From contig NZ_CP021059.1 in the NCBI RefSeq assembly GCF_002119805.1, forward strand, positions 1,674,001 to 1,738,000: DNA of 64,000 bases, written 5' to 3'. Both the position numbers and the translations under genes were made by a program. The notes under the pieces are model-generated. The model was not told where the DNA came from and ran no database searches. It saw only the letters and a list, made by a program, of their open reading frames with translations. Source of the DNA: Macrococcoides canis. GTDB taxonomy: Bacteria > Bacillota > Bacilli > Staphylococcales > Staphylococcaceae. Position 1 is the stretch's first letter. Every line of letters starts with the position of its first letter. Positions 5,630 to 50,903 of the stretch are shown piece by piece.

Positions 5630-6762
5630 CAAAATTCGTCTATTCAAAAAACTTACTGAACTACCGCTTTCGTGATGATCATCCTTTTAATCAGATGCGC
5701 TTGTTACTTACGAAATCATTGCTTGAAAGCCTATCGCTGCTGCACAAAGAAGATATTGTAGCTCCACGCATTGCAACTGATGAGGAACTGATGCTCATTC
5801 ATCAGTCGGAATACATTGAAGCCGTGAAAAAAGCAGGACGAGGAGAACTGAGTTCCAGTGATTGCAGTAAATTTGGGCTTAACTCAAACGATACACCGAA
5901 TTTTAAAGATATGCATGAAATGAGTGCACTGCTCGTTGGTGCGACACTTACTGCATGCGACATTGTTATGAATGGTATCGATCATACTGCATGTAATTTT
6001 GGAGGTGGACTGCATCACGGCTTCACAGGACGTGCTTCAGGATTTTGTATCTACAATGATTCAGCAGTCGCAATAGAATATATGAAACGTAAATATAATC
6101 AGCGTGTACTTTACATCGACACCGATGCACATCACGGTGATGGCGTACAGTTTGCCTTCTACAGCGATAATCAGGTGATGACCTATTCTATTCATGAAAC
6201 TGGTCGATACTTATTCCCTGGAACTGGCGCAATTACTGAAAAAGGTGAAGGCGACGGTTACCTTTACAGCATGAATATTCCCGTTGATGCATATACTGAA
6301 GATGATTCATTTCTGGAATGTTTTGAAGAAAGTTTACGTGCGGCATGTGAATTCTTTAAACCGGATATTATATTAAGCCAGAATGGTGCGGATGCACATT
6401 ATCTAGATCCACTGACACATCTGTCGTGTACGCATAAGACGTACCAGCGCATTCCACAAATTGTCCATCAATTAGCACAAGAATACACAGACGGAAAGTG
6501 GATTGCTGTCGGAGGCGGCGGATATAACGTCTTTCAAGTCGCACCGCTCGCCTGGGCACAAGTGTACAATGCGATGCTCGGTAACAACTATTTAGAAGGG
6601 GCAATACCGTCTGACTGGATTGCCCTGTGGCAAAGTAAAGCACAGATAAAGATTCCTGAAATGTGGAATGAAGATCTGGAAGGATATCAAGTCATACCAA
6701 GACGGCGCGATATCGAAGAAAAGAATAGAATGATGCTTGCGCGTGTCGTACAGCATTATTAG
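5626..6762 (+). CDS. acuC: Acetoin utilisation protein AcuC, class I/II-type deacetylase
   Basis: A 378-aa member of the zinc-dependent arginase/deacetylase superfamily. Visible active-site residues are the His pair at 130-131 (GGGLHHGF), the zinc motif DTDAHHGDG (D167, H169), and the later D in NGADAHYLDPL. In Bacillus AcuC removes the acetyl group placed on AcsA by AcuA, restoring activity. The start overlaps the acuB stop (ATGA). The TAG stop falls exactly at the start of a hairpin repeat array, so no conventional terminator follows; the first repeat hairpin occupies that place. Confidence 0.93.
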   Translation: MTKFVYSKNLLNYRFRDDHPFNQMRLLLTKSLLESLSLLHKEDIVAPRIATDEELMLIHQSEYIEAVKKAGRGELSSSDCSKFGLNSNDTPNFKDMHEMSALLVGATLTACDIVMNGIDHTACNFGGGLHHGFTGRASGFCIYNDSAVAIEYMKRKYNQRVLYIDTDAHHGDGVQFAFYSDNQVMTYSIHETGRYLFPGTGAITEKGEGDGYLYSMNIPVDAYTEDDSFLECFEESLRAACEFFKPDIILSQNGADAHYLDPLTHLSCTHKTYQRIPQIVHQLAQEYTDGKWIAVGGGGYNVFQVAPLAWAQVYNAMLGNNYLEGAIPSDWIALWQSKAQIKIPEMWNEDLEGYQVIPRRRDIEEKNRMMLARVVQHY

Positions 6763-7039
6763 GTGGCTCGTGTTTTTATTTTACGGGCCACTTTGCATGT
6801 CTCAGTACTCTATTTACTTTCAAGGTGGCTCGTGTTTTTATTTTACGAGCCACTTTGCATGTCTCAGCGCTCTAATCTCTCTCAAGGTGGCTCGTGTTTT
6901 TATTTTACGAGCCACTTTGCATGTCTCAGCGCTCTTTTTCTTTCAAGGTGGCTCGTGTTTTTATTTTACGAGCCACTTTGCATATCTCAGCGCTCTTTTT
7001 CTTTCAAGGTGGCTCGTGTTTTTATTTTACGAGCCACTT
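6761..7039 (+). repeat. Array 1 of 61-62-bp-phased T-loop hairpins (5 units)
   Basis: Units start at 6761, 6823, 6885, 6946 and 7007, with periods 62, 62, 61 and 61. Each unit carries a 9-bp stem GTGGCTCGT/ACGAGCCAC (unit 1 has ACGGGCCAC) around an 11-nt T-rich loop, then a spacer beginning TGCATGTCTCAGCGCTC. The acuC stop codon overlaps the first unit. Open frames across the array are by-products of stop-poor repeats, not genes. It fills the gap between convergent acuC and ccpA. Confidence 0.95.
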
Positions 7040-7056
7040 CACACCACTTCATAAAA

Positions 7057-7083
7057 AAGGACCTCGCAATGCGCAAGGTCCTT
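7057..7083 (-). terminator. Terminator of ccpA
   Basis: The stem AAGGACCT/AGGTCCTT encloses a further short CGC/GCG pairing. On the minus strand it is followed by TTTTTTAT. Confidence 0.85.
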
Positions 7084-7088
7084 AATTT

Positions 7089-8078
7089 CTATTTCGTCGT
7101 TCCACGATATTCAATTCTATAAGGTAAAACGACTTTCTGATCTTCAATCGGCTCATCGTTCATATATTTAGTCAATAGACGCATTCCTACAGCACCAATA
7201 TCATATAATGGCTGCATGACACTTGAAAGTTTCGGTCGTACCATTTTCACTAATCGCGTATTGTTAAAGCTGATAACTTGCAGATCATCTGGAACAGTTT
7301 TTCCATCATCCTGCGCTGCATGCACTATACCAATCGCCTGTTCATCGCTAATACATAGCACGACTTCAGGGTTCGTATCTTTAATCGCTCTATATGCCTT
7401 CTCACCATCTAAATATTGTTCAGTCCCAATATACTGCGCTGATTCCGGCAATTCAATCGCATGTTCGTCCAGCAAAGATTTCATTCCACTTAATACATCG
7501 ATCTGTGCTTTTTCTGAATATCCTCCACCTACAAATGCAAATCGCTTCGCACCTGATTGTATAAATTTATGTGTAATTTCTTTACTTGCATTCACATAAT
7601 CGATATTCACTGAAGGTAAGCTTTCATCTAGATCAAGTGTTCCAGATAGTACGACTGGTACACTGGATTTACGGATCATCTCTGCTGTCTTGTCAGAGAG
7701 TGTACCCCCTAAGAAGATAATGCCATCAACTTGCTTTGATAGTAAGTTATTAAAGATATCCTGTTCCTTGACTGCATCGTTATCAGAATTTGAGATAATC
7801 GTCTGATATTTATACATCTTCGCGATATCTTCTAATCCACGTGCAAGTTCTGAATAATACATATTAGAAATATCCGGAATGATTACCCCAACTGTTGTCG
7901 TCTTCTTGCTTGCTAGTCCACGAGCGACTGCATTCGGACGATAGTTCAGACGTTCAATCACTTCATTTACGCGATCTCTTGTCGCAGGTTTCACATTTGG
8001 GTTACCATTTACGACACGAGATACAGTGGCCATTGATACTTTCGCTTCACGCGCTACGTCATATATTGTTACGGTCAT
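7089..8078 (-). CDS. ccpA: Catabolite control protein A
   Basis: A 329-aa LacI-family regulator. The N-terminal helix-turn-helix (residues 3-50, [20 protein letters not shown]) and hinge helix ([10 protein letters not shown]) are typical of CcpA, followed by a periplasmic-binding-like core that in CcpA binds HPr-Ser46-P. It represses or activates genes at cre sites, several of which occur in this window (acsA/acuA, fhs, proline dehydrogenase). GGAGGA lies before the ATG. Adjacent aroA and the acu genes match the conserved Bacillus/Staphylococcus neighbourhood. Two weaker cre-like sequences precede the gene, compatible with autoregulation. Confidence 0.97.
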
Positions 8079-8088
8079 TTTTTCCTCC

Positions 8089-8102
8089 TGAAAACGTTTT
8101 AT
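8089..8102 (-). promoter_or_regulatory. Weak cre-like site before ccpA
   Basis: TGAAAACGTTTTAT fits cre at 12 of 14 positions and sits directly upstream of the ccpA ribosome site. A second, poorer match (11 of 14) lies about 25 bp further upstream. Autoregulation of ccpA is known in S. xylosus; here it is an inference. Confidence 0.35.
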
Positions 8103-8169
8103 TTCTTATTCTAACACGTTTTCAAAGACTTTTCATTCTAAATGATTGTTTTAAACAATTTTTTTATTG

Positions 8170-9240
8170 TTAAAATTTACTTTTAAATTCATTTAACGCT
8201 TTATAGAAATTTTCAAACTCTTCAAAATCCATCTGCTGACCTGCATCGCTTAATGCAACGGCAGGATTAGGATGTACTTCTGCCATCACACCGTCAGCAC
8301 CAACTGCGAGTGCAGCACGTGCAACTGGCAGCATAATATCCTTACGTCCTGTTGAATGTGTAACATCTACCATTACAGGTAAATGTGTCCCTTGCTTTAA
8401 TATTGGTACAGCAGAGATATCTAATGTATTTCTTGTTGCTTTTTCATACGTACGGATGCCACGTTCACATAGAATTATCTTAGAATTGCCTTGTGCATAG
8501 ATGTATTCGGCTGCATAGATAAACTCCTCGATTGTTGCGCTCAGTCCACGTTTAAGAAGTACGGGTTTGTTCGTACGTCCTGCTTCTTTAAGCAGCTCGA
8601 AGTTCTGCATATTTCGTGCGCCGATCTGGAATATATCGACATATTGGTCTGCAAGTTCAAAGTGAGCTGGATTGACAATTTCACTGACTACGTTCAAGTC
8701 ATATTTATTACCTGCTTCACGAAGCATTTGTAACCCTTCTTCTCCAAGTCCTTGAAAATCGTACGGAGACGTTCTTGGCTTAAATGCGCCGCCACGAATA
8801 AACTTTTCGCCTTTTTCGTGCAGATTTTTAGCGACTGCTTCAACTTGCTCTGCAGATTCCACCGAACATGGCCCGAATACATATGACTTAGTGCCTGCAC
8901 CGATGATGCCGCCGTTGTCGAATGTCACAATAGTATCTTCTTGTTTTAACTTACGAGAGACTAACAGATGTTTCTCGCTTTCAGACTTCTGTAATTCTGT
9001 TGAAGCTTTAAATATCTCCTTAAATAGCTGCTTGATGACATTGTCGTCAAATGGACCATCGTTTAGATCCAGCAACTTGTTGATCATTTCTTTTTCGCGT
9101 TCAGGATCATAGATTGCAGTGCCCTGTTTACGCTTTTCTTGTCCAATCTGCTTTGCAATTTCACCGCGTTCACTTAACAGCTTCAATATTTCAATGTTTA
9201 ATGCTTCAATTTTTTCGCGTAATGTATTTAAATCGTTCAT
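8170..9240 (-). CDS. aroA: Bifunctional chorismate mutase / DAHP synthase
   Basis: A 356-aa fusion: an AroQ-type chorismate mutase (about residues 1-88, [20 protein letters not shown]) is followed by a type I DAHP synthase barrel (from about 105; FGPCSVES near residue 122 and KPRTSPY). It condenses phosphoenolpyruvate and erythrose-4-phosphate at the entry of the shikimate pathway. In Bacilli the mutase domain serves as the prephenate/chorismate feedback sensor. The symbol follows Bacillus/Staphylococcus usage and is not EPSP synthase. It is monocistronic upstream of ccpA. Confidence 0.95.
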
Positions 9241-9269
9241 CGTTTGACCTCTTTTATTTTAAATTAAAA

Positions 9270-9296
9270 AAATAGTAGACTTTAGGCCTACTATTT
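9270..9296 (-). terminator. Terminator downstream of the ytxH-type gene
   Basis: A 9-bp stem AAATAGTAG/CTACTATTT with a 9-nt loop is followed on the minus strand by a T-rich run. Confidence 0.8.
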
Positions 9297-9322
9297 TATC
9301 ATATCATAAAAAGATTTTGTGA

Positions 9323-9787
9323 TTATTTGTTTTTAGGGGATAAATTGTCAGCAATGTCTTTAGTATTTTTGTTTTCTAACAATGCTTCATCTTTGTTTGG
9401 CGTTAATTCTTTATCCACGACTGCATCAGGCTGCTTCAAAGTATCATCGTTCACTTCAGCTTTAATCGCTTTCTTCTGCAGTTCCAGATCACTTTGATTC
9501 TCTTTCGTAATATCCGTTTTAAATGCTGCTGCTTTCTCTTTTAAGCTTTCTGCATTTTTAATTTGATTATTATAAGTTTCTACAGATTTTGATTTTATTG
9601 TTTCTACTTTTTCGCCAAGTTCTTCCTGAAGTGCTTTACCTGACTTTGGAGCTACGAGTAAACCGATAAATGAGCCTACCGCAAGTCCTGCTGCAAGACC
9701 TAAAGAGAAATCACGTGCTGTTGTATCCTTTTTCACTTCGTATTCTTTAACTGTATGTGTATGTAAATCTCTGTTATAAGTTTCCAT
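9323..9787 (-). CDS. YtxH domain protein
   Basis: 154 aa from the ATG at 9787, which is 6 nt after GGAGGG; earlier in-frame starts lack a ribosome site. A short hydrophobic stretch (about residues 30-50, LGLAAGLAVGSFIGLLVAPK) with the YtxH signature (APKSG) is followed by a long charged, coiled-coil-like tail. In Bacillus the ytxGHJ genes beside aroA/murC belong to the general-stress regulon; the molecular role is unknown. It is 50 bp downstream of the DUF948 gene and probably co-transcribed with it. Confidence 0.85.
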   Translation of the reverse strand: METYNRDLHTHTVKEYEVKKDTTARDFSLGLAAGLAVGSFIGLLVAPKSGKALQEELGEKVETIKSKSVETYNNQIKNAESLKEKAAAFKTDITKENQSDLELQKKAIKAEVNDDTLKQPDAVVDKELTPNKDEALLENKNTKDIADNLSPKNK

Positions 9788-9838
9788 CTTATTCCCTCCT
9801 AAAAAAAGAATGTACATAATGTACATTCCCTTAATGGT

Positions 9839-10369
9839 TTACTTTAAACCTGCATTGATTTTGTCCTGATCTAAATGATCACCTTTAGTATGTGTCTCAT
9901 TGAAATTGTTTTGTGGTGTACGGTAAATATCATCATTGAAATTTACAGTATCACGACGTTGCTTTCTCATTTGCCATTTATCAGCAACTTCCATTGCAAC
10001 GTTTGACCATTGAACAACTTGAGAAATCTTGTCTTCGTTCTGTGAGATGTTATGTGTAATTGATGATGTAACATTATTAACTGAACTGTTTAAGTTCTGT
10101 ACTGAATCACCAATACCTTTAACTGCATCTACTACTGAATTTAAACGTTGAGATTTGTCCTGAACATCTTCTGCTAAACGGTTCGTTTTGTGAAGTAAAT
10201 CTGTTGATTCACGAGTGATCCCTTGAATTTGTCCTTCAACACCATCTAAAGTTTTAGCAACATGGTCTAAATTCTTCTTCACTGACATTAAAGTGATGCC
10301 GATGAATACACATAGAATTAAAAATGCAATCGCAGCGATTAAACCTGCAATCGGTAAAATCCATTCCAT
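9839..10369 (-). CDS. DUF948 membrane-anchored protein (YtxG-like)
   Basis: 176 aa. One N-terminal transmembrane helix (about residues 3-27) is followed by amphipathic heptad-rich segments rich in Asn/Ser/Val (residues 32-120), as in DUF948 proteins. The cytoplasmic remainder is polar. The ATG follows AGGAGG. It pairs with the downstream ytxH-type gene, as in Bacillus where both are stress-induced. Function is unknown; a role at the envelope is only suggested by the membrane anchor and the neighbouring murC. Confidence 0.82.
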   Translation of the reverse strand: MEWILPIAGLIAAIAFLILCVFIGITLMSVKKNLDHVAKTLDGVEGQIQGITRESTDLLHKTNRLAEDVQDKSQRLNSVVDAVKGIGDSVQNLNSSVNNVTSSITHNISQNEDKISQVVQWSNVAMEVADKWQMRKQRRDTVNFNDDIYRTPQNNFNETHTKGDHLDQDKINAGLK

Positions 10370-10446
10370 AAAAACGCCTCCTAAAATTATTAACTTGTTA
10401 TACTCTAAGTTACCCTTATACCTTATTAATAAACATCATATCATAC

Positions 10447-11742
10447 TTATTTTAATTTTTCATATGCTGCCTGAATTTTTTGTATGTCACCCGCACCCAT
10501 AAAGATAATCACTGCATCTTCATACTGTTTCAGCAAATTGACGTTTGATTCGTTGATCAGTTCAGCACCTGGAATCAATATTTGCAAGTCACCGATTGTC
10601 AGCTCCCCACTATCTTCACGGGCAGAACCAAAGATATCACAAAGATACACTTTATCTGCAAGCTTTAAACTATTTGCGAAATCATCGAGAAATGCACTCG
10701 TACGTGAAAACGTATGCGGCTGGAATACTGCGATAACCTTACGTTCAGGATATTTCAGATGTGCAGACTGTAGCGTCGCTTTAATCTCAGTTGGATGATG
10801 TGCATAATCATCGATAAGAATCTGTTCGTCCTGTACCTTTTCGCTGAAACGACGTTTAACGCCGCCAAATGTACTTAAAGCATGTTTTACAGCTGCGTTA
10901 TCCAGTCCTTCTAAGTGACAGATTGTTATAACAGCAAGTGCATTCAGTACTTGGTGATCACCATACATTGGAGTAACAAACGTATCAAGCAGTTCATCAT
11001 CGATATACACTTCAAACTGCGTTCCTTGAGGCGTCGTCTTCATATTCTTTGCTTCGACTTTATTATCTTCTTTAAAGCCATAATAATAGATCGGGATATC
11101 TGCTTCGATATCTCTTAAATTCTCATCGTCTCCACAAGCAACAATTGCTTTCTTAACTTTCTTCGTCATCTCCTGGAATGCATTGAACACATCGCTCATC
11201 GATGCAAAGTAGTCGGGATGATCAAAGTCGATATTGGTAATGATCGCGTAATCCGGTGAGTAGCTTAAGAAATGTCTGCGATATTCACAAGCTTCAAATG
11301 CGAAATATTCACTACCAGGCATTCCCATCCCTGTACCATCACCAATCAAGTATGAAGTCTTCTTGTCACCGTTCATCACATGCGATAACAGTCCAGTTGT
11401 CGATGTCTTACCGTGAGAACCTGTAACTGCTACAGATGTATACTGCTCCATGAAGTTCCCTAGAAAATCATGATAACGCGTCACAGGAAGCTCAAGTTCA
11501 TGTGCACGTACAATTTCTTCATGATCATCATTAAAAGCATTACCGGCAATAATCGTCATACCTTCTTTAATGTTCTCTTGATTAAAAGGCAGTATCGTTA
11601 TTCCTTTGTCTCTTAACGCTTTTTCCGTGAAAAATTCTTTCTCGATATCCGATCCTTGTACAGTTTCACCCATATCAAATAATATTTGAGCTAATGCACT
11701 CATGCCTGATCCTTTAATACCAACAAAATGATATAAAGTCAT
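10447..11742 (-). CDS. murC: UDP-N-acetylmuramate-L-alanine ligase
   Basis: Adds the first L-Ala to UDP-MurNAc in cytoplasmic peptidoglycan synthesis. The protein is full length (431 aa): a Rossmann start ([14 protein letters not shown]), the Mur-ligase ATP loop [10 protein letters not shown] at about 108-117, and the C-terminal ligase domain with [14 protein letters not shown]. The start ATG follows AGGAG and lies 11 nt after the stop of the upstream translocase gene, so the two are probably co-transcribed. Placement next to the FtsK-family gene is conserved in Bacilli. Confidence 0.97.
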
Positions 11743-11753
11743 AAATTCATCTC

Positions 11754-14492
11754 CTAATATTCTTCTTGTTTTTCTGTTATCAGCACATCTCTAGGTTTAG
11801 AGCCATTCTGACCACTGACATAACCCATCTCTTCCAGCTGATCGATAATTCGTGCTGCTCTATTATACCCTATTTGAAAGCGTCTTTGTATTTGAGAGGT
11901 TGAAATATGCCCTTCTTCTACCATAAAGTTACAAATTTCATTAAACAGTTCATCTTTCGGCTGCTCTGATAATTTCTTCAGCAATGTCTTCTCATGGAAG
12001 AGATAGTTCGGCTTTCCTTGAGATTTAATATAGCCTACAACTTCATCAATCTCACGATCAGAAATATAGCTTCCCTGTATACGAATCGGCTTGTTCATTC
12101 CGTTGCCGAGATACAGCATATCGCCATTTCCTAACAATTTTTCAGCGCCACCAGAATCGAGTATCGTTCTTGAATCTACAGATGAAGATACCATAAATGC
12201 GATACGCGTCGGCACATTCGCTTTGATTAATCCTGTGATTACGTTGACTGAAGGTCGTTGTGTAGCAAGAATCAGATGAATTCCTGCTGCACGTGCTTTT
12301 TGCGCGATACGTGCAATGGAATGCTCCACATCTTGTGGTGCCATCATCATCAAGTCTGCTAATTCATCGATTACGACAACAATCTTCGGAATTCTATCCT
12401 GATAGCTTACTTTCTGATTATAGGCAGTAATATTACGTACATGGACATCTGCAAATATTTGATATCTGCGTTCCATTTCACCGACAACCCATTTTAAGCT
12501 CTCTGTAGCTGCTTTAACATCGGTGATAACAGGTGCAATTAAGTGTGGTAAATCATTGTACGGTGCAAGTTCCACCATTTTCGGATCAATCAATAACAAT
12601 TTCAATTCGTTAGGATTGTTACGATATAGTAGTGAAATGAGAATCGAGTTGATACATACAGATTTACCAGACCCTGTAGCACCGGCAATTAAGCCATGCG
12701 GCATCTTCGCAAGATCCATGATCATCGGTTCATTGTTAATTCTGGCGCCTAGTGCGACTGATAGATTGCTATCAGAGAATTTCATCTTCTTGCTGAAGAC
12801 AATTTCACTTAAGTTCACGTTGCGCGTTTCAACATTCGGCACTTCTACACCGACAAGTGAAGTACCAGGAATTGGTGCCTCTATTCGGACATCTTTAGCC
12901 GCGAGTGCCATTTTGATGTCATCCTGCAAGTTCGTAATGCGAGATACCTTCACACCTTTTTCGACCGAAAGTTCAAAGCGTGTTACTGAAGGACCGACGA
13001 CAACATTCTCTACTTTTGCTGGCACATTAAAATGATAGAATGCATCATCAAGCTGTGCTTTATGTTCTTCAACCCACGATTCATCTCGTTCCATATTATC
13101 TGCAGGTGTCAGTAAGCTTACCGGTGGAAGGAGATACTTCGGTCCTTTGCGCTTGAACTGTATGAGCTTTGCTTCATCCTCAGTATCCTTAGGCTCACTC
13201 AATCCATCAGGTTGCTGTTCCTGTACGTCTTCGACAGGTTCATTGCTTACTTGCTGAACTTCTGTTGTCTCGGATTTTGACGCCGCTCGTTGCTGCATTA
13301 AGCGCTTCTTATCACTCGGGGTCATAACGACATTAAATGGTGTAACCTTCTCTTTCTTTGTATCAGGTGCAAGTACAGGTTCTAAAGACACTGGAGGCTC
13401 ATCATTTGATACCATTTCAGTCTCATCTTCCGTGTCGAAAGAAACATCGTCAAATGTATCTTCATCCAGCTGGACATCTTCATTATCTTCATCAATATCT
13501 GTATCTATAATGTCATCTTGAGTCTTACTTTCAGCTGCTTCTGTATCCGTACTTTCAAAGGTAATATTTTCTTCCATGAAAGTCTCATCTTCACGTGAAC
13601 TGAAAGTATATGATTCACCTGAGTTCAGTTCAACTTCTGTGCCTTCATCGCTGATATTCACTTTAATCGGCGTTTCATCAATTGTATCAATCTCAATATC
13701 AGTGACTACCGCTTCATCTGATAATGTTATTACATCATCTGATAATTGCACAACATCATCAGCTGCAACCTCTAATACAACTTCTTCCTCAACTTCTTGT
13801 TCCACCGGCTCATGATTCATCATAGATTTGATGGCTTCCTGCTGTTCAGCAAGTTTTCTGCGCTCTTCCTGGAAAGCTTTCTGACGCTGAATTTTCTTGT
13901 CACGTTCTTTTCTGATTTCAGCCACAATTTGAGAGGCATATACATTCTCGATATTCACCGCGTTATCTTCTTTTCGATGTGTCGGCGTTGCAGGACGTGA
14001 TGCGGTAACCTTCTTAGGCATAATAGGGGGACGCCCCTTTAACAACGAAGGATCTTTACGACTTTTCGTTCCATATATTGCTGAAGGTACTTCTGAAGCT
14101 TTAAACTTAGGCTGATGCACACGATATGCTTTTTCTATATGAGCTTCATCGCTTTGTTTCCTACCTAAAGGAGAAGTTTCAACCTTATAGCCTACATGCT
14201 GGTCACGCGCAGCTCTTCTTTGTCGTCTCGGAACGTATGTTTCATCAAATGATGCACTTTGACGGTTACGTTTCTTTTGTACAGGTTTATAGGATACCTC
14301 ACTATTTTCAACCGGTTTCTCATGCGTCGTGGGATGACTCTCTCTCGTCTTTACAGTGTCCACATCAACCGGAAAACGAAACTTTCCCCTAGGACGTCTG
14401 TATACGTCATTTTCTGAGGTGTCCAGTCTTTCTGTTCTGATGTCTTCAGTATTCTCTTTTGATTCTCCGAATAATTTATCAAACCAGCTCAT
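11754..14492 (-). CDS. sftA: DNA translocase, FtsK/SpoIIIE family (SftA type)
   Basis: 912 aa. The N-terminal half (to about residue 450) is charged and low in complexity with acidic stretches and no membrane helices, which fits soluble SftA rather than membrane-bound SpoIIIE. The motor follows: Walker A GATGSGKS near residue 605 and Walker [13 protein letters not shown] near 705. A C-terminal winged-helix gamma domain (about 845-905, [20 protein letters not shown]) reads KOPS-type sequences in the family. It pumps DNA near the septum to clear chromosomes and resolve dimers. Upstream ytpR and downstream murC match the Bacillus ytpT locus. Confidence 0.93.
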
Positions 14493-14501
14493 CGTATCAC
14501 C

Positions 14502-38978: not shown

Positions 38979-39495
38979 GAGTGGCCGCAGTCCGGACATT
39001 CATGCAGGATTTCGGGCGCGAGTGGCCGCAGTTCGGACATTCACGCAGGATTTCAGACGCGAGTGGCCGCAGTTCGGACATTCACGCAGGATTTCAGACG
39101 CGAGTGGCCGCAGTTCGGACATTCATGCAGGATTTCGGGCGCGAGTGGCCGCTGTTCGGACATTCATGCAGGACTTCAGACGCGAGTGGCCGCAGTCCGG
39201 ACATTCACGCAGGATTTCGGGCACGAGTGGCCGCTGTTCGGACATTCACGCAGGATTTCGGGCGCGAGTGGCCGCAGTTCGGACATTCATGCAGGATTTC
39301 GGACGCGAGTGGCCGCAGTTCGGACATTCATGCAGGATTTCGAGCGCGAGTGGCCGCAGTCCGGACATTCACACAGGATTTCGGACGCGAGTGGCCGCAG
39401 TTCGGACATTCATGCAAGATTTCGGGCGCGAGTGGCCGCAGTTCGGACATTCATGCAGGATTTCGGGCGCGAGTGGCCGCAGTTCGGACATTCAC
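38979..39495. repeat. GC-rich tandem repeat, 41-bp unit, 12 complete copies plus 25 bp
   Basis: Unit begins GAGTGGCCGCAGTTCGGACA and repeats exactly every 41 bp from 38979 to 39471. Units differ mainly by transitions (TTC/TCC, CAT/CAC, GGG/GGA/AGA) plus an A/T change in CGCAG/CGCTG. Units are about 60% GC against AT-rich surroundings. All three plus-strand frames stay open throughout, but no ribosome site or coding family supports a gene. It lies between the 3' end of the VOC gene and the 5' side of the nitroreductase gene. Confidence 0.97.
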
Positions 39496-39536: not shown

Positions 39537-39538
39537 CA

Positions 39539-42371: not shown

Positions 42372-42395
42372 CGCTTTACTCCTAACATTAGATAG

Positions 42396-42459
42396 CTATC
42401 TTATAATGTAAGATAGTATATTTTTATAAATAAGTCAACTATCTTTTATTGAAAGATAG
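42396..42459 (-). promoter_or_regulatory. Paired palindromic operator and promoter of padR
   Basis: Two 21-bp palindromes with identical 8-5-8 geometry: CTATCTTA/TAAGATAG (42396-42416) and CTATCTTT/AAAGATAG (42439-42459), centres 43 bp apart. Between them, on the minus strand, TTGACT (42438-42433) is 17 bp from TATCTT (42415-42410), which lies inside the first palindrome. A third partial palindrome AGATAGCTATCT is at 42390-42401. Binding by PadR is inferred. Confidence 0.7.
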
Positions 42460-42521
42460 CTAGAAATGGCTAACTTTTTTATGTTCCTCACTTCAAGTGA
42501 GTTTAACGGATTAATTAATGC

Positions 42522-43050
42522 AAGATGGCTCGTGTTTATTTTTTATGGACCATCTTGGAGTGCACCCTGCTCCTCGCCCTGCCATCTTGGCTCGTGTTTA
42601 TATTTTACGAGCCACTTCAAGGGCTATTGGCTGATTATGACATTCAAGGTGGCTCGTGTTTTTATTTTACGAGCCACTTCTAGGGCTATTGGCTGATTAT
42701 GACACTCAAGGTGGCTCGTGTTTTTATTTTACGAGCCACTTCTAGGGCTAACGGCTGATTATGACACTCAAGATGGCTCGTGTTTATTTTTTATGGGCCA
42801 TCTTGGAGTGCATCCTGCTCCTCGCACTGCCATCTTGGCTCGTGTTTATTTTTTATGGGCCATCTTGGAGTGCATCCTGCTCCTCGCACTGCCAGCTTGG
42901 CTCGTGTTTATTTTTTATGAGCCATCTTGGAGTGCATTCTACTCCTCGCACTGCCATCTTGGCTCGTGTTTATTTTTATGAGCCATCTTGGAGTACATCC
43001 TGCTCCTTGCACTGCCATCTTGGCTCGTGTTTTTATTTTACGAGCCACTT
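42522..43050 (+). repeat. Array 2 of 62-bp-phased T-loop hairpins (9 units)
   Basis: Hairpin cores start at 42527, 42589, 42651, 42713, 42775, 42837, 42899, 42961 and 43022: eight intervals of 62 except the last, 61. Arms change between units: AAGATGGCTC with CCATCTT partners (units 1 and 5), GTGGCTCGT/ACGAGCCAC (units 3, 4) and shorter GGCTC/GAGCC (later units). Spacers are of at least two types (one beginning TAGGGCTATTGGCTGATTAT, one with internal AGTGC/GCACT). It lies between padR and the pnuC terminator. Confidence 0.95.
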
Positions 43051-43074
43051 TGAAAATAATTATTACCATTAAAA

Positions 43075-43096
43075 AAGACCAGCTTTCGCCGGTCTT
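43075..43096 (-). terminator. Terminator of pnuC
   Basis: The stem AAGACC/GGTCTT with an inner GC pair is followed on the minus strand by TTTTTT. Confidence 0.8.
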
Positions 43097-43100
43097 CTTA

Positions 43101-43838: not shown

Positions 43839-43849
43839 ATCCCATCTCC

Positions 43850-44944
43850 TTAATTATCTTTGCCATCTGCAAGTATTTCGTCAACGAGACGATGCGCTTC
43901 CTCGTACTTCTCCTGGAAGCTGTCCCCTTTTAATACGACCATCTTATCTTCCAGACCTTGGTATTTAATTTCATCCAGAAACATTTGATGCATATCCAGG
44001 CGTGCTTTTTCGTCTGCCATCGACATATCTCTGAAACCGTCGTCTACATAATTCGTAGTTGGTGGTAATACGATTATCAGCGCCCATGTCTGAAGTGAGA
44101 TATAGTAATCAAATACTGGTGCAATCTTCTCATAGTCTTCTTTAGGTGCATAGAGTTTCGTATAAAGTTTCGTCGTCATCACATCTGTATCTGCAAAGAA
44201 TACTTTACGCGTTCCTGGAGAGTGGATGTGTTTACGATTCAGTTCAAACTGGCCAATTCCAATTGCATGCAGGTCTTTTATATCCAGCTCATCATCGCGG
44301 ACTTGTCTTGTTGTCTGATACTCCCTTGAATATTCTAAAGAATATGAAGTTGAATAGCGTCTTGCCAAGTCTCTTACGAGTGTCGTCTTACCTGTACTCG
44401 CCGTTCCGATAATCAATATATTTTTAACGAAGAATCTACGGAAAGGACGTGTAACAAAATCCCAGTTTAATATCGGATTCTCACGTATCGATGTTCCGCT
44501 GATTCCAGTAATTCTACGATCAACTTTTGTAATTTGCACATCACTTTTAGCAAATACTTTCGTGAAATACGAATCCAGTGGTTCGATATACTCTTCTTCT
44601 CCTACATAGAACGTTACAGATTCCATCGGTAATTCTAAAGCTGCTGCTTGAGACGTAATCTTATCTCGTAATAAATCTAACCACGGTGCCCATCCTGCTG
44701 GATACCTTGGAATATTCGTTTCATCAAGTGTAACGACGGTTACATTTTCATCGTCTTTCAGCAGTTCTCGCATCGCCTTCACACGATTCGTCAAGCTCAT
44801 TCCCGCTTTATCTCCTCTATCCTCGTCATAACCAGAGACAATAACAAGCGCATTTTTATTCTCACGCTTTGCTCGAATAATCTGTTCAAGATGCCCCACA
44901 TGACATGGTGCAAATGTTCCGAAATATACCCCTAAATCTCTCAT
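43850..44944 (-). CDS. nadR: NadR-type NMN adenylyltransferase / ribosylnicotinamide kinase
   Basis: 364 aa. The N-terminal nucleotidyltransferase has GTFAPCHVGH (the GTFxPxHxGH motif) and ISGTSIRENP; the C-terminal kinase has a P-loop GTASTGKTT near residue 180. Unlike enteric NadR there is no N-terminal DNA-binding domain, so it is a pure enzyme. It makes NMN and then NAD from imported riboside. ATG after AAAGGAG. Operon with pnuC. Confidence 0.95.
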   Translation of the reverse strand: MRDLGVYFGTFAPCHVGHLEQIIRAKRENKNALVIVSGYDEDRGDKAGMSLTNRVKAMRELLKDDENVTVVTLDETNIPRYPAGWAPWLDLLRDKITSQAAALELPMESVTFYVGEEEYIEPLDSYFTKVFAKSDVQITKVDRRITGISGTSIRENPILNWDFVTRPFRRFFVKNILIIGTASTGKTTLVRDLARRYSTSYSLEYSREYQTTRQVRDDELDIKDLHAIGIGQFELNRKHIHSPGTRKVFFADTDVMTTKLYTKLYAPKEDYEKIAPVFDYYISLQTWALIIVLPPTTNYVDDGFRDMSMADEKARLDMHQMFLDEIKYQGLEDKMVVLKGDSFQEKYEEAHRLVDEILADGKDN

Positions 44945-45104
44945 CCCAATACTCCTTTAATTTATTTCTTCTTATTATAACAATTTATCTTAATATTGTA
45001 CCCAATAAAAACGATTTACAATCCTATACAATAAATTAACATTGCTTTTAACGGATGTTTACAATCTTCCGCTACAATTAAATTAATGACAAAGGGGGCA
45101 CATG

Positions 45105-45236
45105 ATGAAGCTACTTAAAAAGGTTGTTATCGCATTTTTAACGATTATCTCATTACCATTCTTTATAGAAATAAGCACTGAACCTGTTCAATCTGATCTT
45201 ATCGCTCAACATAAAAAAGCTCCGTCCGAAGACTAG
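45105..45236 (+). CDS. Short hydrophobic peptide gene (43 aa)
   Basis: A 43-codon frame (MKLLKKVVIAFLTIISLPFFIEI...) after GGGGG with 6-nt spacing to the ATG at 45105. One membrane helix or a signal-like segment, then a short polar tail ending KKAPSED. Its stop sits 4 bp from the end of the convergent thiT gene. No known family; it could be a small membrane peptide or exported peptide. Confidence 0.5.
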   Translation: MKLLKKVVIAFLTIISLPFFIEISTEPVQSDLIAQHKKAPSED

Positions 45237-45239
45237 AGC

Positions 45240-45797
45240 TTAATATCTGTTATTCTTAGTAACATTAAATAATCTAGGTGCTACAGTAAACAGAATCACT
45301 AGAATAACGATACATGTGATGCCGTTTATAAGTGCGATCTGTCCATTATAGAGCAATGAATATAGCCATGCCGGCTGTCCTTTAGGTGCATATGCTCCAA
45401 AGTAGACCCATCCCGATAAGAAATGGATGAAATAGCGCGCCAATACTGCAAGCGCTGTAAAGATCACAATTTTCGTATGATTGACTGGTCGACCGGCAAG
45501 TCCTGCAAGTCCAATCAATGTAAATGCGAATGCATAATCAAGAAAGCCCTGCAGTGGATGTACGATACTGCCCGCTGCATCTCCAACTACAATCTGCAGT
45601 AATCCCCAAAGGAATCCTGCTGCCATTCCTGCTTTGACACCTCTTCTGAATGAAAGCAATAATATCGGTACCATCGAAAAGCTTAAGCTTAGACCGAAGA
45701 ATATGCCTTTAATCTGCGAATCAATAAAGTCCAGCACCATTGCGAATGCTGCCATCATCGCAATTTCTAATAATACGACCGTTCTTTCTCTGTTCAT
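45240..45797 (-). CDS. thiT: Thiamine ECF transporter substrate-binding subunit ThiT
   Basis: 185 aa from the ATG at 45797 after AAGGAG. About six membrane helices with the ThiT/YuaJ pattern and the conserved GLLQIVVGDAAGSIVHPLQGFLDY region. Binds thiamine and relies on a shared ECF ATPase module encoded elsewhere. The TPP riboswitch upstream supports thiamine as the ligand. Confidence 0.95.
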   Translation of the reverse strand: MNRERTVVLLEIAMMAAFAMVLDFIDSQIKGIFFGLSLSFSMVPILLLSFRRGVKAGMAAGFLWGLLQIVVGDAAGSIVHPLQGFLDYAFAFTLIGLAGLAGRPVNHTKIVIFTALAVLARYFIHFLSGWVYFGAYAPKGQPAWLYSLLYNGQIALINGITCIVILVILFTVAPRLFNVTKNNRY

Positions 45798-45819
45798 AAC
45801 CAATCTCCTTTCATTGCTT

Positions 45820-45907
45820 ATGAACCAGAAGCCACATTCCTGCGCAAGCATTACCTTACAGGTTCAAGCGTATCATCTCAGCACAATAGGCACCGCTTGT
45901 GGTTCAT
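45820..45907 (-). promoter_or_regulatory. TPP riboswitch upstream of thiT
   Basis: On the minus strand the THI-box signatures are present: GGTGCC, GCTGAGA and CTTGAACCTG. The outer helix is ATGAACC (45907-45901) with GGTTCAT (45826-45820). No T-run terminator lies between it and the start codon, so ribosome-site sequestration is the likely mechanism. Confidence 0.9.
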
Positions 45908-46008
45908 AGCACTACCCATTTTACACGAGTTAATAATATTTTCAATAATTCGATACATTTATTAAAGCGCATTTTACACAAAAATAATAAATAATCCATA
46001 AAATTCTT

Positions 46009-46037
46009 TTGACCTTTTAAAGCGTTTTCATTATTAT
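46009..46037 (+). promoter_or_regulatory. Proline dehydrogenase promoter with embedded cre
   Basis: TTGACC (46009-46014), a 17-bp spacer and TATTAT (46032-46037). The spacer region contains TTAAAGCGTTTTCA (46017-46030), matching the cre consensus at 13 of 14 positions, so CcpA should block polymerase directly. Confidence 0.7.
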
Positions 46038-46070
46038 TAAAATAATGGAAGACTATAAGGAGGATGTAAA

Positions 46071-47063
46071 ATGGGATTAACGAGAGATTTTTTTATTAAA
46101 TTAAGTGAAAACGAAACATTAAATACAGCAGCTAAGAAGTATGGTTTAGCATTAGGGGCGCATAAAGTCGTTGCCGGAACTGACGTTGAGACAACGATCG
46201 AATCTATTCGCGAATTAAACGCACAAAACATCTCTGCTACGGTAGATAACTTAGGAGAATTTGTCTTCTCAAAAGAAGAAGCGACTGCTGCTAAGAATAA
46301 TATTCTAGAAATGATCCAGGCAATCTATGATGCAGGTGTTGATGCACATATGTCGATTAAGTTAACACAGATCGGTTTAGACGTGGACCCCGAGTTCTGC
46401 TATGAAAACGTTCGTGAAATTTTAATGAAAGCTTATGAATGCGGTAATATGCATGTCAATATGGATACTGAAGATTACAACCATACTGTACAGACATTCG
46501 AAATGTTAGATCGTTTAAAAGGCGAATTTAAAAATGTCGGTACTGTAATTCAAGGTTACCTTTTCCGTGCTTCTGAAGAAATTGATAAATATCAGGACGT
46601 ACGTCTACGTCTTGTAAAGGGTGCATATAAAGAAGATGCATCAGTTGCATATCAGTCAAAAGAAGATATCGATGCGAACTACATCAAGATTATCGAGCAA
46701 CGTCTATTAAATGCGAAAGCGATGACTTCAATCGCAACACATGACCACAACATTATCGACCACGTGAAGAAATTCATTGCTCAGCATAACTTGAACAAAG
46801 ACTTAATCGAATTCCAGATGTTATATGGTTTCCGTTCTGAGTTACAAGTTGAAATCGCAAATTCAGGCTATAATTTCTGTACTTACGTGCCTTACGGACA
46901 AGACTGGTACGGTTACTTCATGCGTCGTCTTGCGGAACGTCCACAAAACTTACAGCTTGTGTACAAATCAATCGCAACACCTGAAGTGAAGAAGAATGCT
47001 GGAATCGCTGCAGGAGCTGCAGTTGGAGTATTCGCTTTATCAAAATTACTTAGAAGAAAATAA
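46071..47063 (+). CDS. Proline dehydrogenase
   Basis: 330 aa, monofunctional PutA N-terminal-type proline dehydrogenase (FAD-binding TIM barrel). Visible motifs: SIKLTQIGL, RLVKGAYKED and HDHNI..., and LYGFRSELQ near the C-terminus. Oxidises proline to pyrroline-5-carboxylate, feeding electrons to the quinone pool. ATG after AAGGAGG. The C-terminal AAAVGVFALSKLLRRK could form a weak membrane-associating tail. Promoter has a CcpA operator. Confidence 0.93.
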   Translation: MGLTRDFFIKLSENETLNTAAKKYGLALGAHKVVAGTDVETTIESIRELNAQNISATVDNLGEFVFSKEEATAAKNNILEMIQAIYDAGVDAHMSIKLTQIGLDVDPEFCYENVREILMKAYECGNMHVNMDTEDYNHTVQTFEMLDRLKGEFKNVGTVIQGYLFRASEEIDKYQDVRLRLVKGAYKEDASVAYQSKEDIDANYIKIIEQRLLNAKAMTSIATHDHNIIDHVKKFIAQHNLNKDLIEFQMLYGFRSELQVEIANSGYNFCTYVPYGQDWYGYFMRRLAERPQNLQLVYKSIATPEVKKNAGIAAGAAVGVFALSKLLRRK

Positions 47064-47065
47064 TA

Positions 47066-47105
47066 AAAATGAACCCCATGTGATATTTCACATGGGGTTC
47101 ATTTT
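47066..47105. terminator. Bidirectional terminator between proline dehydrogenase and ribH
   Basis: A perfect 18-bp stem (47066-47083 with 47088-47105), loop TATT, with A and T tracts at the base. Confidence 0.95.
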
Positions 47106-47568
47106 ATATCTCATCCATCATCTTATTTAAGTTCGCCATTTCAATCGCACTAATTGCTGCTTCTCCACCTTTATTCCCTGCTTTTGTTCCAGCTCTTTCA
47201 ATCGCCTGTTCGATACTTTCTGTTGTTACTACGCCGAAGATGACCGGAGTGCCATATTCAGAAGCTTTCGCAATACCTTTTGCCGCTTCATTACATACAT
47301 AGTCGTAATGTGTTGTCGCCCCGCGAATGACACAACCTAATGTAATGACTGCATCATATTTTTGTTTTTGTGCAAGCTTTGAAGCGACAAATGGAAGTTC
47401 AAACGCACCTGGCACTAAAAATGTATCGATATCCTCCTTGATCACACCGTGTCGTTCTAAAGTATCGAGCGCTCCTTCAGTCAGACGGTCTGTAATAAAA
47501 TGATTAAAACGTGATGTAATAACTGCAATCTTTAAACCTTCACCTGTTAACTTTGCACTATAGTTCAT
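47104..47568 (-). CDS. ribH: 6,7-dimethyl-8-ribityllumazine synthase
   Basis: 154 aa, full length. Condenses the pyrimidinedione product with dihydroxybutanone phosphate to lumazine. Conserved elements: [11 protein letters not shown] at the N-terminus, [10 protein letters not shown], and [14 protein letters not shown] with the catalytic His. Overlaps the end of ribBA by 4 bases. Last gene of ribD-ribE-ribBA-ribH. Confidence 0.97.
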
Positions 47569-48755
47569 ATTAAATTCTCCTTTAGTAAATGTCCTAGTTT
47601 TTGTTTTTTAGTTTCAAGATAATCTTTGTTCTCTTCCACACTTTGAAATTGGTGCGGAATGCGTTCGATTACTTCGATGCCATAATGCTTGAGCCCTGTT
47701 ATCTTACGAGGATTATTCGTCAGCAGTTCTACTTTATTTACACCGAGATCCCGAAGCATTGATGCAGCGACAGCATAATCGCGCAAATCACTGCCAAAGC
47801 CGAGCGCATGGTTCGCTTCTACTGTATCGAGTCCTTGTTCAATCTTTTCGTAAGCTTTCAGTTTATTGATAAGCCCGATACCTCGGCCTTCCTGTCTTAA
47901 ATAAAGCAGTATACCGCCGTGCTTATCAATATGCAGCATCGCTTCTTCAAGCTGCTTGCCGCAATCACAGCGTTTACTATGGAAGACGTCTCCAGTTAGA
48001 CATTCTGAATGGATGCGAATATGGGGAATCCCTTTGTAAGGCTTCACATATGCAACGTGTTCTTTATCCGAATAGATTTCTTTAAAGCCATACATCTGAA
48101 ATGTACCGAAAGCTGTCGGCATATGTACTTTCGCTTCACGCGTGACAAGTGGCTTTGTCGACTTAATATAGTCAATGATGGCATCGATTGTAATCATCTT
48201 CAATTGATGCTTCTCTTTATATAGGACTAAGTCGTCACGTCTCGCCATCGTCCCGTCATCTTTAATAATTTCACAGATAACGCCCGTCTCACTTGCACCT
48301 GTGAGCTGTGCCAGATCCACACATGCTTCTGTATGACCTTTTCGTTTAAGCACCCCACCTTGCTGTGCAATGAGCGGGAAGATATGACCTGGCTGGTTAA
48401 ACTGAGCTAACGTGACATTATTATCTGTCAGGGCTTTCACTGTCATATAGCGTTCCTTTGCACTAATGCCTGTCGTCGTATCTTTATGATCGATACTGAC
48501 TGTAAATGCCGTTTTATTTGGATCCTGATTGTTCATCGTCATTGGCAAAAGTCCCAGCTTATCGTTAAGTTCATGCGAAATCGGCGCACAGACAAGTCCT
48601 CTTGCATGCGTAATCATAAAGTTGATCGTCTCTTCGGTCATAAAGTCTGTAATCGCAATGAGATCTCCTTCATTTTCACGGTCTTCATCGTCAACTACGA
48701 TAATCGGTTTACCAAGCTTCAAATCTTGCAGTGCTTCTTCAATGGAATCAAACAT
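47565..48755 (-). CDS. ribBA: Bifunctional DHBP synthase / GTP cyclohydrolase II
   Basis: 396 aa. The N-terminal half is 3,4-dihydroxy-2-butanone-4-phosphate synthase ([11 protein letters not shown], acidic loop); the C-terminal half is GTP cyclohydrolase II with the zinc Cys motif [15 protein letters not shown] and RQEGRGIGL. Supplies both riboflavin precursors. Start overlaps the ribE stop by 1 base. Confidence 0.97.
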
Positions 48756-49378
48756 TACATCATCATCTCCAGTTTAGATAAAGTGAGTGTTTCACTCGAC
48801 TTCATCTGATTTAATATATATTTGCCGAGCATATCAAATTCGATATGTACTTTATCGCCCGTCTTAAGTGTCTTAAGCATCGTGCTGCGTACTGTTTCAG
48901 GAATAATATTTAATGTGATTGTATTCGTCAGTTCAAAGATCGTCAGAGAAATACCGTTCACTGCAATCGAACCTTTAGGAATCACGTTTCGTCTGAATTG
49001 TTCCGGGCAGACAAGTTCGATAATATAAGTCTTTTCATTCTGCTGGATACGTTTCACCGAGACACTCGTGTCGATATGTCCGCTGACGAAGTGGCCACCA
49101 AGACGCGTTGTCGGCAGTAATGCGCGTTCAAGGTTCACTTCGGTGCCGACTTTCATCGTGTGAAAAAGCGTAATCGCACTAGTACCACGCACGATATCAA
49201 CGGTAAACGACTGCGCATTAAATGATGTCACCGTCAGGCACACACCGTTTACGCTAATAGAGTCTCCGATATGCATATCGGATAATATTTTCTGACAGTT
49301 AATCGTCATCACTGTCGTATCACTTTGCTGCTTCATCTGAGAAATTGTACCGACTTCTTCTACGATACCTGTAAACAA
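48755..49378 (-). CDS. ribE: Riboflavin synthase (alpha subunit)
   Basis: 207 aa with two similar barrels: MFTGIVEEVGTISQM at the N-terminus and GHIDTSVSVKRI/second-domain start near 97. Converts two lumazines into riboflavin and pyrimidinedione. Second gene of the rib operon; 4 bp after ribD. Confidence 0.96.
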   Translation of the reverse strand: MFTGIVEEVGTISQMKQQSDTTVMTINCQKILSDMHIGDSISVNGVCLTVTSFNAQSFTVDIVRGTSAITLFHTMKVGTEVNLERALLPTTRLGGHFVSGHIDTSVSVKRIQQNEKTYIIELVCPEQFRRNVIPKGSIAVNGISLTIFELTNTITLNIIPETVRSTMLKTLKTGDKVHIEFDMLGKYILNQMKSSETLTLSKLEMMM

Positions 49379-49382
49379 GAGA

Positions 49383-50408
49383 TCACGCCTTTCTGTAAAT
49401 AAGGAGTACGTCGTCGTCGAACTGATTTACAGAGACAAGATTAAAATGCGTCATATCACGCATTGAGGAAAGCGTATCAGTCGTTAAAAACTGATGTTTT
49501 GAAGTTCCACCTAACAGTTTCGGGGCAATGTAGTGGTGTATTTCGTTATAGCACTGTGCTTCAATAAAAGAGCGGATGGTCTGCATACCGCCTTCAATTA
49601 ATAAATTACGGATGCGCTCGTTATAAAGCGCTTTTAATATATCTTCAGGACTTAAGTGCGGGACATGGATAATTGTCACGCCTTCGATATGCTGCGCGAT
49701 GGCTGAAATGACAATTAATCGTGACCTGTCATAATCGTTATCGTCTTGTGTATTTAATACAAATGGACCATTTGTAACGATGACTTTGTAGATGCGTTTA
49801 TCTTTGTAAAGTCGCGCGTCAAGGGTCGGTGTATCCTTTTTATATGTATTGTACCCAACCAATATCGCATCCATCCCGTAACGCACACGATGTGCATGTG
49901 CACGAGATTTATCGTTCGTAATCCATTTGCTTATACTTTCGTCATCGGCAGTCTTACCGTCAATCGTTGTCGCCATCTTGATCGTAACATAAGGGACTGA
50001 TGCTGTCTTACTCTTGAAAAAAGGTGCATAAAACGCATCGATTGCATCATCTTCCACCTTTTCAACTTCTATACCTTTAGACTGCATATAGCTTACACCT
50101 GAAGATAATGTTACATCTGACGCTGCATAGACAACCTTACTTATGCCAGCAGCGACGATCTTCTCGGTACAAGGTGGCGTCTTCCCATGATGGCTGCATG
50201 GCTCAAGCGTGCAATAAAGTGTCGCACCAAGCGCATGAGTACCTGCCATGTTAATCGCATTCACTTCAGCATGCGCCTCACCTTCAGTCAGGTGGGCACC
50301 GATGCCGACGATGCGATCATCTTTGACGATAACACAGCCGACAGCAGGATTCATCCCAGTCTGTCCTTCTGTCCATTTCACTAGTTCAAATGCTTTGTTA
50401 ATATACAT
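49383..50408 (-). CDS. ribD: Bifunctional riboflavin deaminase/reductase
   Basis: 341 aa: an N-terminal cytidine-deaminase-like domain with zinc motifs HAEVNAI (His, Glu) and CTLEPCSHHGKTPPC, then a reductase domain from about residue 150 (KMATTIDGKTADD). Two early steps of riboflavin synthesis. ATG after AGGAGG, immediately downstream of an attenuator terminator. Confidence 0.96.
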   Translation of the reverse strand: MYINKAFELVKWTEGQTGMNPAVGCVIVKDDRIVGIGAHLTEGEAHAEVNAINMAGTHALGATLYCTLEPCSHHGKTPPCTEKIVAAGISKVVYAASDVTLSSGVSYMQSKGIEVEKVEDDAIDAFYAPFFKSKTASVPYVTIKMATTIDGKTADDESISKWITNDKSRAHAHRVRYGMDAILVGYNTYKKDTPTLDARLYKDKRIYKVIVTNGPFVLNTQDDNDYDRSRLIVISAIAQHIEGVTIIHVPHLSPEDILKALYNERIRNLLIEGGMQTIRSFIEAQCYNEIHHYIAPKLLGGTSKHQFLTTDTLSSMRDMTHFNLVSVNQFDDDVLLIYRKA

Positions 50409-50426
50409 CTGTTCCTCCTATAAAAA

Positions 50427-50456
50427 AATCACCCGAACAATGAAGTTCGGGTGATT
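50427..50456 (-). terminator. FMN-controlled attenuator terminator before ribD
   Basis: A 12-bp stem AATCACCCGAAC/GTTCGGGTGATT is followed on the minus strand by seven T and, directly after, the ribD ribosome site. It is the expression platform of the FMN riboswitch. Confidence 0.9.
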
Positions 50457-50544
50457 GAAATTTAGGTTCAACAAATAAGACCATAAAATAGCGATTGTCG
50501 AGTTTTAAGTCATCAACAAATAAACCATCGACTAATGGTATCTT

Positions 50545-50667
50545 ATTCTTTCTCCCATCCAGACTTTAACTGTCGGCCTCTGATTTTCAAAGAGTCAGCC
50601 TTATGCAGTGCATAAGGGTCGCGGGCTATCACCGCCGGTTGGGAATTTCACCCTGCCCCGAAAGAAT
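50545..50667 (-). promoter_or_regulatory. FMN riboswitch (RFN element) of the rib operon
   Basis: On the minus strand the RFN core reads GGGGCAGGGTGAAATTCCCA, then ACCGGCGGTGATAGCCCGCGA, and ends with GTCTGGATGGGAGAAAGAAT. The closing helix ATTCTTTC/GAAAGAAT is at 50545-50552/50660-50667. Between aptamer and terminator lies an imperfect direct repeat (TCAACAAATAA at 50467 and 50513). Confidence 0.97.
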
Positions 50668-50803
50668 GTTATTAACTTGTCTGTCTATTACGACAATTTA
50701 ATCGTACCGAAGTTAATCATAAAAATCAATGAAAAGATTTTGGGATATGGTTGGTGGTTGATGAAGTGTGATAGTTGCTGAGCCCCTTACATACGAAGTG
50801 TAC

Positions 50804-50903
50804 ACCATCTTGGCTCATGTTTATTTTTTATGAGCCAACTTGACGTGAGCATTTTAGTAATAGAAACCAAAGTGGCACGTGGTTATATTTTACGTGCCAC
50901 TTT
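50804..50903 (+). repeat. Array 3, two T-loop hairpins 62 bp apart
   Basis: Hairpin cores start at 50812 (GGCTCAT/ATGAGCC) and 50874 (stem AAGTGGCACGT/ACGTGCCACTT). The second has the central base pair swapped relative to array 1 (GGCTCG to GGCACG with the matching CGAGCC to CGTGCC). The T-rich loop is on the plus strand as elsewhere. Located between the FMN riboswitch and the hutI terminator. Confidence 0.88.

Follow-up and report, generated by a model that had tools for sequence, protein, structure and literature searches.

Positions 1674001-1738000 of Macrococcoides canis contig NZ_CP021059.1 (assembly GCF_002119805.1), a stretch of 64,000 nucleotides analysed here as the window, contain 16 hairpins of one family, here called T-loop hairpins, in three arrays of five, nine and two units. 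The hairpins recur every 61-62 bp, and the spacers between them differ in sequence from array to array. Of the 115 spacings in 24 arrays from four genomes, 106 equal 62 bp; the others are 61 bp (four), 63 bp (three), 46 bp and 69 bp (one each). A locked unit length is well supported as a fact for the T-loop family and is suggested for Macrococcoides and the genus g4 at large. To explain it we lean, with somewhat less than even confidence, towards arrays that resemble the STAR elements of staphylococci and have their unit length locked, when they arise or are amplified, close to four or six helical turns.

T-loop hairpins of the window

The window belongs to a genome of a single contig with 2,363,414 bases (G000). 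Its acuC product groups with those of Macrococcoides/Macrococcus, and among the named hits M. caseolyticum DSM 20597 is nearest (90% protein identity). A 27 bp pattern with up to three mismatches recovers 15 of the 16 hairpin cores, and a chance origin of the cores is excluded because 100 shuffles, used as control, average 0 matches. The 16th core (42960-42985) is one loop base short and was recovered in the unit alignment. Each unit consists of a 9-13 bp stem and a T-rich loop of 11 bases (10 in one hairpin). DNA folds of three window hairpin units, compared with 200 shuffles each, reach z-scores of -4.5 to -7.5, equalled by 0 of 200 shuffles. Start-to-start distances are 62, 62, 61 and 61 bp in array 1, seven times 62 and once 61 bp in array 2, and 62 bp in array 3; Tandem Repeats Finder calls the 62 bp period for arrays 1 and 2. 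An earlier note on this DNA had given the same number of hairpins per locus and the same spacings, and both are reproduced exactly. The 61 bp step of array 2 results from a one-base loop deletion in hairpin 2.8; the two of array 1 arise because the change lies in the spacer.

Array 1 (6757-7043, plus strand; core search and alignment) occupies the interval between acuC, which encodes a protein with a Hist_deacetyl domain, and the convergent gene of a LacI-family regulator, which we take to be of the CcpA type. Its hairpin 1.1 starts directly after the acuC stop codon TAG, and the cores of hairpins 1.1 to 1.5 lie at 6764-6790, 6826-6852, 6888-6914, 6949-6975 and 7010-7036. Just past the array (7057-7083, minus strand), where the convergent regulator gene of the minus strand ends, the terminator scan places a terminator-like stem and its T run.

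Array 2 (42519-43054, plus strand) separates the genes of a PadR regulator and a nicotinamide mononucleotide (NMN) transporter, both on the minus strand. The cores of hairpins 2.1 to 2.7 are found at 42526-42552, 42588-42614, 42650-42676, 42712-42738, 42774-42800, 42836-42862 and 42898-42924, followed by the shortened hairpin 2.8 and by hairpin 2.9 at 43021-43047. Two kinds of spacer, equal in length, occur in this array: units 2-4 are followed by type a, units 1 and 5-8 by type b.

Array 3 (50804-50906, plus strand) lies between the flavin mononucleotide (FMN) riboswitch/ribD leader and a minus-strand amidohydrolase gene, with cores at 50811-50837 (hairpin 3.1) and 50873-50899 (hairpin 3.2). 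The stem of the latter, GGCACGT/ACGTGCC in the alignment, is a paired change. A terminator-like stem of the amidohydrolase gene follows just past the array (50962-50983, minus strand; terminator scan). The FMN riboswitch itself lies upstream of ribD on the minus strand (50543-50669); among Rfam covariance models run on the window it alone reaches its gathering score, and the T-loop hairpins are unmatched. By eye, none of the 16 hairpins is followed by a T run on either strand. The terminator scan admits loops of 3-8 bases only, and T-loop hairpins could not appear in it.

The earlier note also held that stems change in paired fashion. Among 134 units of four genomes some paired changes are seen, at pair 7-35 (G-C, T-A or A-T; paired in 104 units), at pair 14-28 (A-T, G-C or G-T; 130 units) and at pair 12-30 (T-A, A-T, C-G or T-G, besides C-A and G-A mismatches; 105 units); covariation is modest when the window units alone are considered, and the outer four pairs are frequently disrupted (51 to 96 of 134 units paired). 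Stem positions 8-11, 13 and 15 are nearly invariant.

Arrays in related genomes

A covariance model built on the 16 window units, the search that the note had proposed as a check, finds matches at E 0.01 in 9 of 60 genomes, including G000. There are 72 matches in G000 and 31-38 in each of G004, G005 and G006, the four array-rich genomes, all of one genus (Macrococcoides group); five other genomes have one to four matches each. G000 carries at least ten arrays, a lower bound since 150 of 2241 initial candidates were scored, and their forward units are nearly all 62 bp apart; the random spacing elsewhere in the genome that would have spoken against the note's idea does not occur. From the array-rich genomes 28 loci with 143 units were extracted (for G004, two of its at least six places); the 115 spacings come from those 24 loci that have more than one unit. 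A two-unit array of G008 is also spaced by 62 bp.

Copy number varies between species, each represented by one genome. The acuC locus contains a single unit in G006 and G004 and five in G000 and G005; the rib locus ranges from two to ten units across sister species. At the rib locus, comparison by eye shows one hairpin of G000 to be bounded by CTTG repeats and to be missing from G005 exactly between them. Just past acuC, at the site of window array 1, Macrococcus sp. DPC7161 has an array of about ten copies of a 41 bp unit (L085, 4154-4556). The AcuC query has no match in viral contigs.

T-loop arrays sit near gene ends. Arrays 1 and 3 abut the scanned terminator-like stems given above, and similar stems are seen by eye at other arrays. 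On the 3' side of the T-loop strand, the closest frame among those listed (at least 80 aa) converges with that strand in 25 of 28 arrays; some such frames are short and may be non-genic. The sign of the GC skew switches between 1.10 and 1.20 Mb in sampled stretches of G000, and 22 of 26 arrays carry the T-loop on the strand that is not G-rich (G000, G005 and G006, with loci shared between genomes; the two of G004 are excluded).

A short segment with a 269-aa frame is inverted, judged by eye, between G000 (L042, 2.006-2.008 Mb) and G006 (L048, 1.826 Mb), and T-loop arrays stand at both of its ends in G000; these palindromic arrays may have mediated the inversion. Elsewhere in G000 (L115, 2.144-2.164 Mb), an open frame of about 2,900 codons is packed with nested coding repeats.

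Spacer sequences

The 25-base spacer consensuses of non-orthologous arrays share a mean identity of 0.29 (29%; mean z 0.3, 251 pairs), near the shuffled level. The note's statement that spacers differ between arrays therefore holds, even inside array 2 with its two types, and its proposed comparison of period with spacer identity yields a period kept in 106 of 115 spacings at about shuffled spacer identity. General homology of the spacers, which would have reduced the period to simple inheritance, is not what is found, though 16 of the 251 pairs exceed z 2 and spacer column 47 retains 0.96 bits. Among orthologous arrays, 5 of 25 spacer pairs are 76-88% identical and align gap-free, all of them among G000, G004 and G006. 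Other orthologous pairs are low, such as rib of G000 and G006 (0.28) and the pair 1958k-1793k (0.20), and those involving G005 range from 0.12 to 0.44.

Several sources of new spacers were considered and rejected. Copying from elsewhere in the genus finds no support in two spacer patterns from the 24 arrays (up to three mismatches, nine genomes), which match their own array or, for the padR locus, its G006 ortholog only. A phage or plasmid origin was rejected for array 2, the sole array compared, which has no match. Turnover by inversion is not seen, the best reverse-complement match having 13 of 23 positions identical, below the 99.9% level of the null (14). Most spacers resemble neither flank of their own array, and capture of flanking sequence as a general source is rejected, being seen in a minority of the 24 arrays only. 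Resemblance to the 5' flank is present in G006_rib, G006_1793k and G005_padR and weaker in G000_padR (p 0.03), and resemblance to the 3' flank in G000_2006k and G005_433k and weaker in G000_1958k, G006_541k and G005_padR (p 0.02).

Other tandem arrays with periods of 40-41 and 62 bp

Spaced 20-kb stretches clear of known T-loop arrays were surveyed with Tandem Repeats Finder in seven genomes (G000, G005, G006, G007, G013, G023 and G031). Input were 39 arrays with a period of 25-130 and a score of at least 80; four window rows, chosen earlier, were excluded together with 17 rows that lie in long open frames and have a period that is a multiple of three, and six of seven rows from the last five stretches were added, an 82 bp row being dropped as the double of a 41 bp array. 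Of the resulting 24 non-coding arrays, 18 have a period of 40 or 41 bp and three of 62 bp (21 of 24 in the set). BLAST clustering groups them into 16 sequence families, 13 of which fall into {40, 41, 61-63} (p 3e-15 in a binomial test with uniformly spread periods as the null). Sampling of G031 and G023, the genomes of genus g4, came after the 41 bp class had been noted, and seven of their nine families are at 40 or 41 bp. The three 62 bp arrays, all in G005, form two hairpin families without BLAST link to the T-loop family.

The window itself contains this second class at 38979-39494 (no strand assigned), with 12.6 copies of a GC-rich 41 bp unit that forms no clear hairpin and is weakly similar to a 41 bp hairpin array of G005 (L215). 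In the 41 bp arrays of G031 (L191, 1678-1805; L197, 4051-4198; L222, 28-124 and 1534-1703), units of one array share stems and differ in blocks that are just a few bases long and constant in length.

One G005 locus is a candidate for the birth of an array. L142 comprises seven 62 bp units with the stem CTGCCGAAC/GTTCGGCAG, the last hairpin with a ten-base T-rich tail. At the same gene end of G000 (L159; orthology judged by eye), a single hairpin resembling an intrinsic terminator has the stem CTGCCGAAC/GTTCGGCAG and no repeat. By eye, the 34-base spacer of L142 resembles neither flank. A second G005 array (L144) ends in a hairpin and four T's.

Comparison with known repeat systems

The nearest relatives in behaviour are the STAR elements (Staphylococcus aureus repeat), described by Purves et al. 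2012 (PMC3532100) as intergenic repeats of Staphylococcaceae in arrays of one to seven, with no function assigned. According to that paper, STAR spacers are uniform per locus, differ between loci and are sometimes of two types, with local expansion and contraction; at gapR a 14 bp motif and a 40-44 bp spacer give about 54-58 bp (about 50 is also stated), and loci are not shared between species. T-loop spacers are likewise homogeneous within and distinct between loci, and the two systems also have in common the intergenic position, two spacer types in one locus and local changes of copy number. The note's remark that no named family has these properties was consequently too strong. The two differ in that the 14 bp motif TNTGTTGNGGCCC(N) has 0 matches in G000 and G005 and one each in G003, G004 and G006. 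Set against the STAR description, the T-loop unit is a 27-37 bp hairpin with a strict 62 bp period instead of about 54-58 bp, and its loci are partly common to sister species.

Non-coding variable-number tandem repeats (VNTR) of Staphylococcus aureus, including SIRU, have average periods of 60, 66, 67, 21 and 64 bp according to PMC2661140; they resemble T-loop arrays as non-coding tandem repeats of variable copy number, mostly with periods of 60-67 bp. REP/BIME palindromes with RAYT transposases are short extragenic palindromes (PMC3733652). T-loop hairpins match them as extragenic palindromes of 20-40 bp, but no constant GTAG or CGTC end tag is visible in the 24 array consensuses (by eye), and a RAYT/Y1 transposase (PF01797) is found in one of nine genomes of the genus only (G006, contig C2), not in G000, G004 or G005.

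In CRISPR, palindromic repeats alternate with unique spacers and Cas1 is present. T-loop arrays share the alternation of palindromic repeats and spacers and a similar period, but their spacers are repeated within an array, array 2, the only one tested, has no phage or plasmid match, and Cas1 (PF01867), present in one of nine genomes (G007), is not found in any of the four array-rich ones. In G007, where Cas1 is present (L238), the T-loop covariance model has no match. Intrinsic terminators differ by a T run after the stem, which by eye the window hairpins lack on either strand. Among the literature matches listed, in which subscription journals are thinly covered, no title or opening of an abstract concerns these Macrococcus arrays or periods of 41 or 62 bp.

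Origin of the constant period

In the explanation we lean towards, the hairpin would be the shared segment of intergenic, STAR-like tandem arrays at gene ends. Copy number may shift by slippage or recombination between hairpins, as the ranges of one to five units at acuC and two to ten at rib suggest, and contraction by recombination between hairpins would yield the single acuC unit of G006 and G004 as opposed to five. The founding or amplifying step would be efficient only with copies near whole helical turns apart, both the helical reason and the copying step being inferred; length would be kept during spacer turnover because that step needs such a distance. Unit length seems not merely inherited, since unrelated arrays of two genera mostly measure about 41 or 62 bp. 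The broader proposition, that in at least two genera of Staphylococcaceae a process independent of sequence founds or amplifies intergenic repeats at about 41 or 62 bp only, turning unrelated hairpins into arrays of equal period and letting spacers be exchanged at constant length, is advanced with more reserve still. A ruler other than the helix, for example a protein footprint, is possible.

A number of observations weigh against a helical length lock. Three of the 24 surveyed arrays are off-class, with 36 bp (G007), 51 bp (G031, two copies) and 130 bp (G023). Uniformly spread periods are a crude null, and part of the choice of the set {40, 41, 61-63} was made with the data already seen; the a priori test of 62 (+/-1) is modest, with two of seven other Macrococcoides families (p 0.015). 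L142 and L150 have the 8-mer GTTCGGCA in common and therefore may not be wholly unrelated. The 36 bp array is all that 400 kb of G007 yielded, and in 200 kb of G013, a genome from a different genus of the family, nothing reached the survey score. At one STAR locus of G013 (L229, 2.286 Mb), the STAR-motif array has a period of 121 bp and a neighbouring repeat one of 69 bp, so the length rule is not family-wide. Units of 41 bp are not all hairpin-bearing, the fold of the window array at 38979 having a z of -0.85. The average periods of the S. aureus non-coding VNTR, including SIRU, take several values instead of one. Simple tandem duplication leaves spacers unlike the flanks unexplained. Finally, 41 and 62 bp are integral numbers of turns only at about 10.25-10.35 bp per turn, not at 10.5.

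The period might instead be a legacy of common descent, a single 62 bp hairpin unit having seeded about nine loci, with spacers drifting and homogenising per array and with indels being rare. This is the account in which the five gap-free orthologous spacer pairs of near species, the 16 pairs above z 2 and the conserved column 47 find a natural place, and adjacent units differ by 231 spacer substitutions and only nine length changes in 91 pairs. At this ratio, the probability that nine independent loci would all have retained 62 bp once substitutions had saturated is roughly 0.001 to 0.1 under different assumptions, and for that reason the T-loop family by itself does not decide the question of inheritance. 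It rejects common descent of one 62 bp repeat weakly, and our initial view that the constant period refutes such descent outright has been softened accordingly. The other 62 bp families of G005 and the 40-41 bp class in two genera are left unexplained by it, as is the low agreement of G005 spacers at orthologous loci, and we consider common descent rather unlikely. The note's argument that phasing exceeds the copying of a single repeat thus stands insofar as the period is held without spacer homology between loci, but not against descent with few indels. Slightly less probable again is selection for same-face placement of the hairpins by a structure-specific protein (a cruciform or bent-DNA binder, or a nucleoid factor) with a role in chromosome structure or at gene ends. 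Spacing close to whole turns, conservation of the stems together with some paired changes, the strand polarity of the T-loop in three genomes and the convergent 3' frames all fit it, but two genomes have just one unit at acuC and the window array of 41 bp units holds its length class without a hairpin. The note had offered about six helical turns per unit as a sign of same-face selection or of copying that measures length; the recurrence of 62 bp in two unrelated hairpin families of G005 agrees with this, but 62 bp is 5.9 turns at 10.5 bp per turn and whole at about 10.3.

A role at the RNA level, with arrays of 3'-end hairpins that terminate transcripts, stabilise mRNA or block antisense transcription, would suit the terminator-like stems beside arrays 1 and 3, the two G005 arrays that finish in a hairpin and T's (L142, L144) and the first acuC hairpin immediately 3' of the stop codon; with no T run after any window hairpin and no reason given for a constant period, we regard it as improbable. 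HUH/Y1 or Cas1-like enzymes can give a measured insert length, and a hairpin-recognising enzyme of the former kind (IS200/IS605 or RAYT) or a Cas1-like integrase could insert measured units. The CTTG-bounded hairpin difference at the rib locus (by eye) and the strand polarity of the T-loop are in line with such an element, but slippage between the CTTG repeats accounts equally for the former. RAYT/IS200-type mobility was rejected on the Y1 transposase not found in G000, G004 and G005, and Cas1-type measuring on the Cas1 not found in the array-rich genomes; we think a mobile element very unlikely to be the cause.

Taken as a whole, the interpretation in the earlier note is partly supported. The T-loop arrays are perhaps a variant of the intergenic repeats of staphylococci in which unit length is unusually constant and may not depend on sequence. 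Unrelated arrays that share two discrete periods in one genus make the distinction between a copied and a measured repeat testable, which bears on how bacterial minisatellites such as STAR, SIRU and VNTR begin and retain their unit length. Typing of Macrococcus might also use T-loop arrays as markers.

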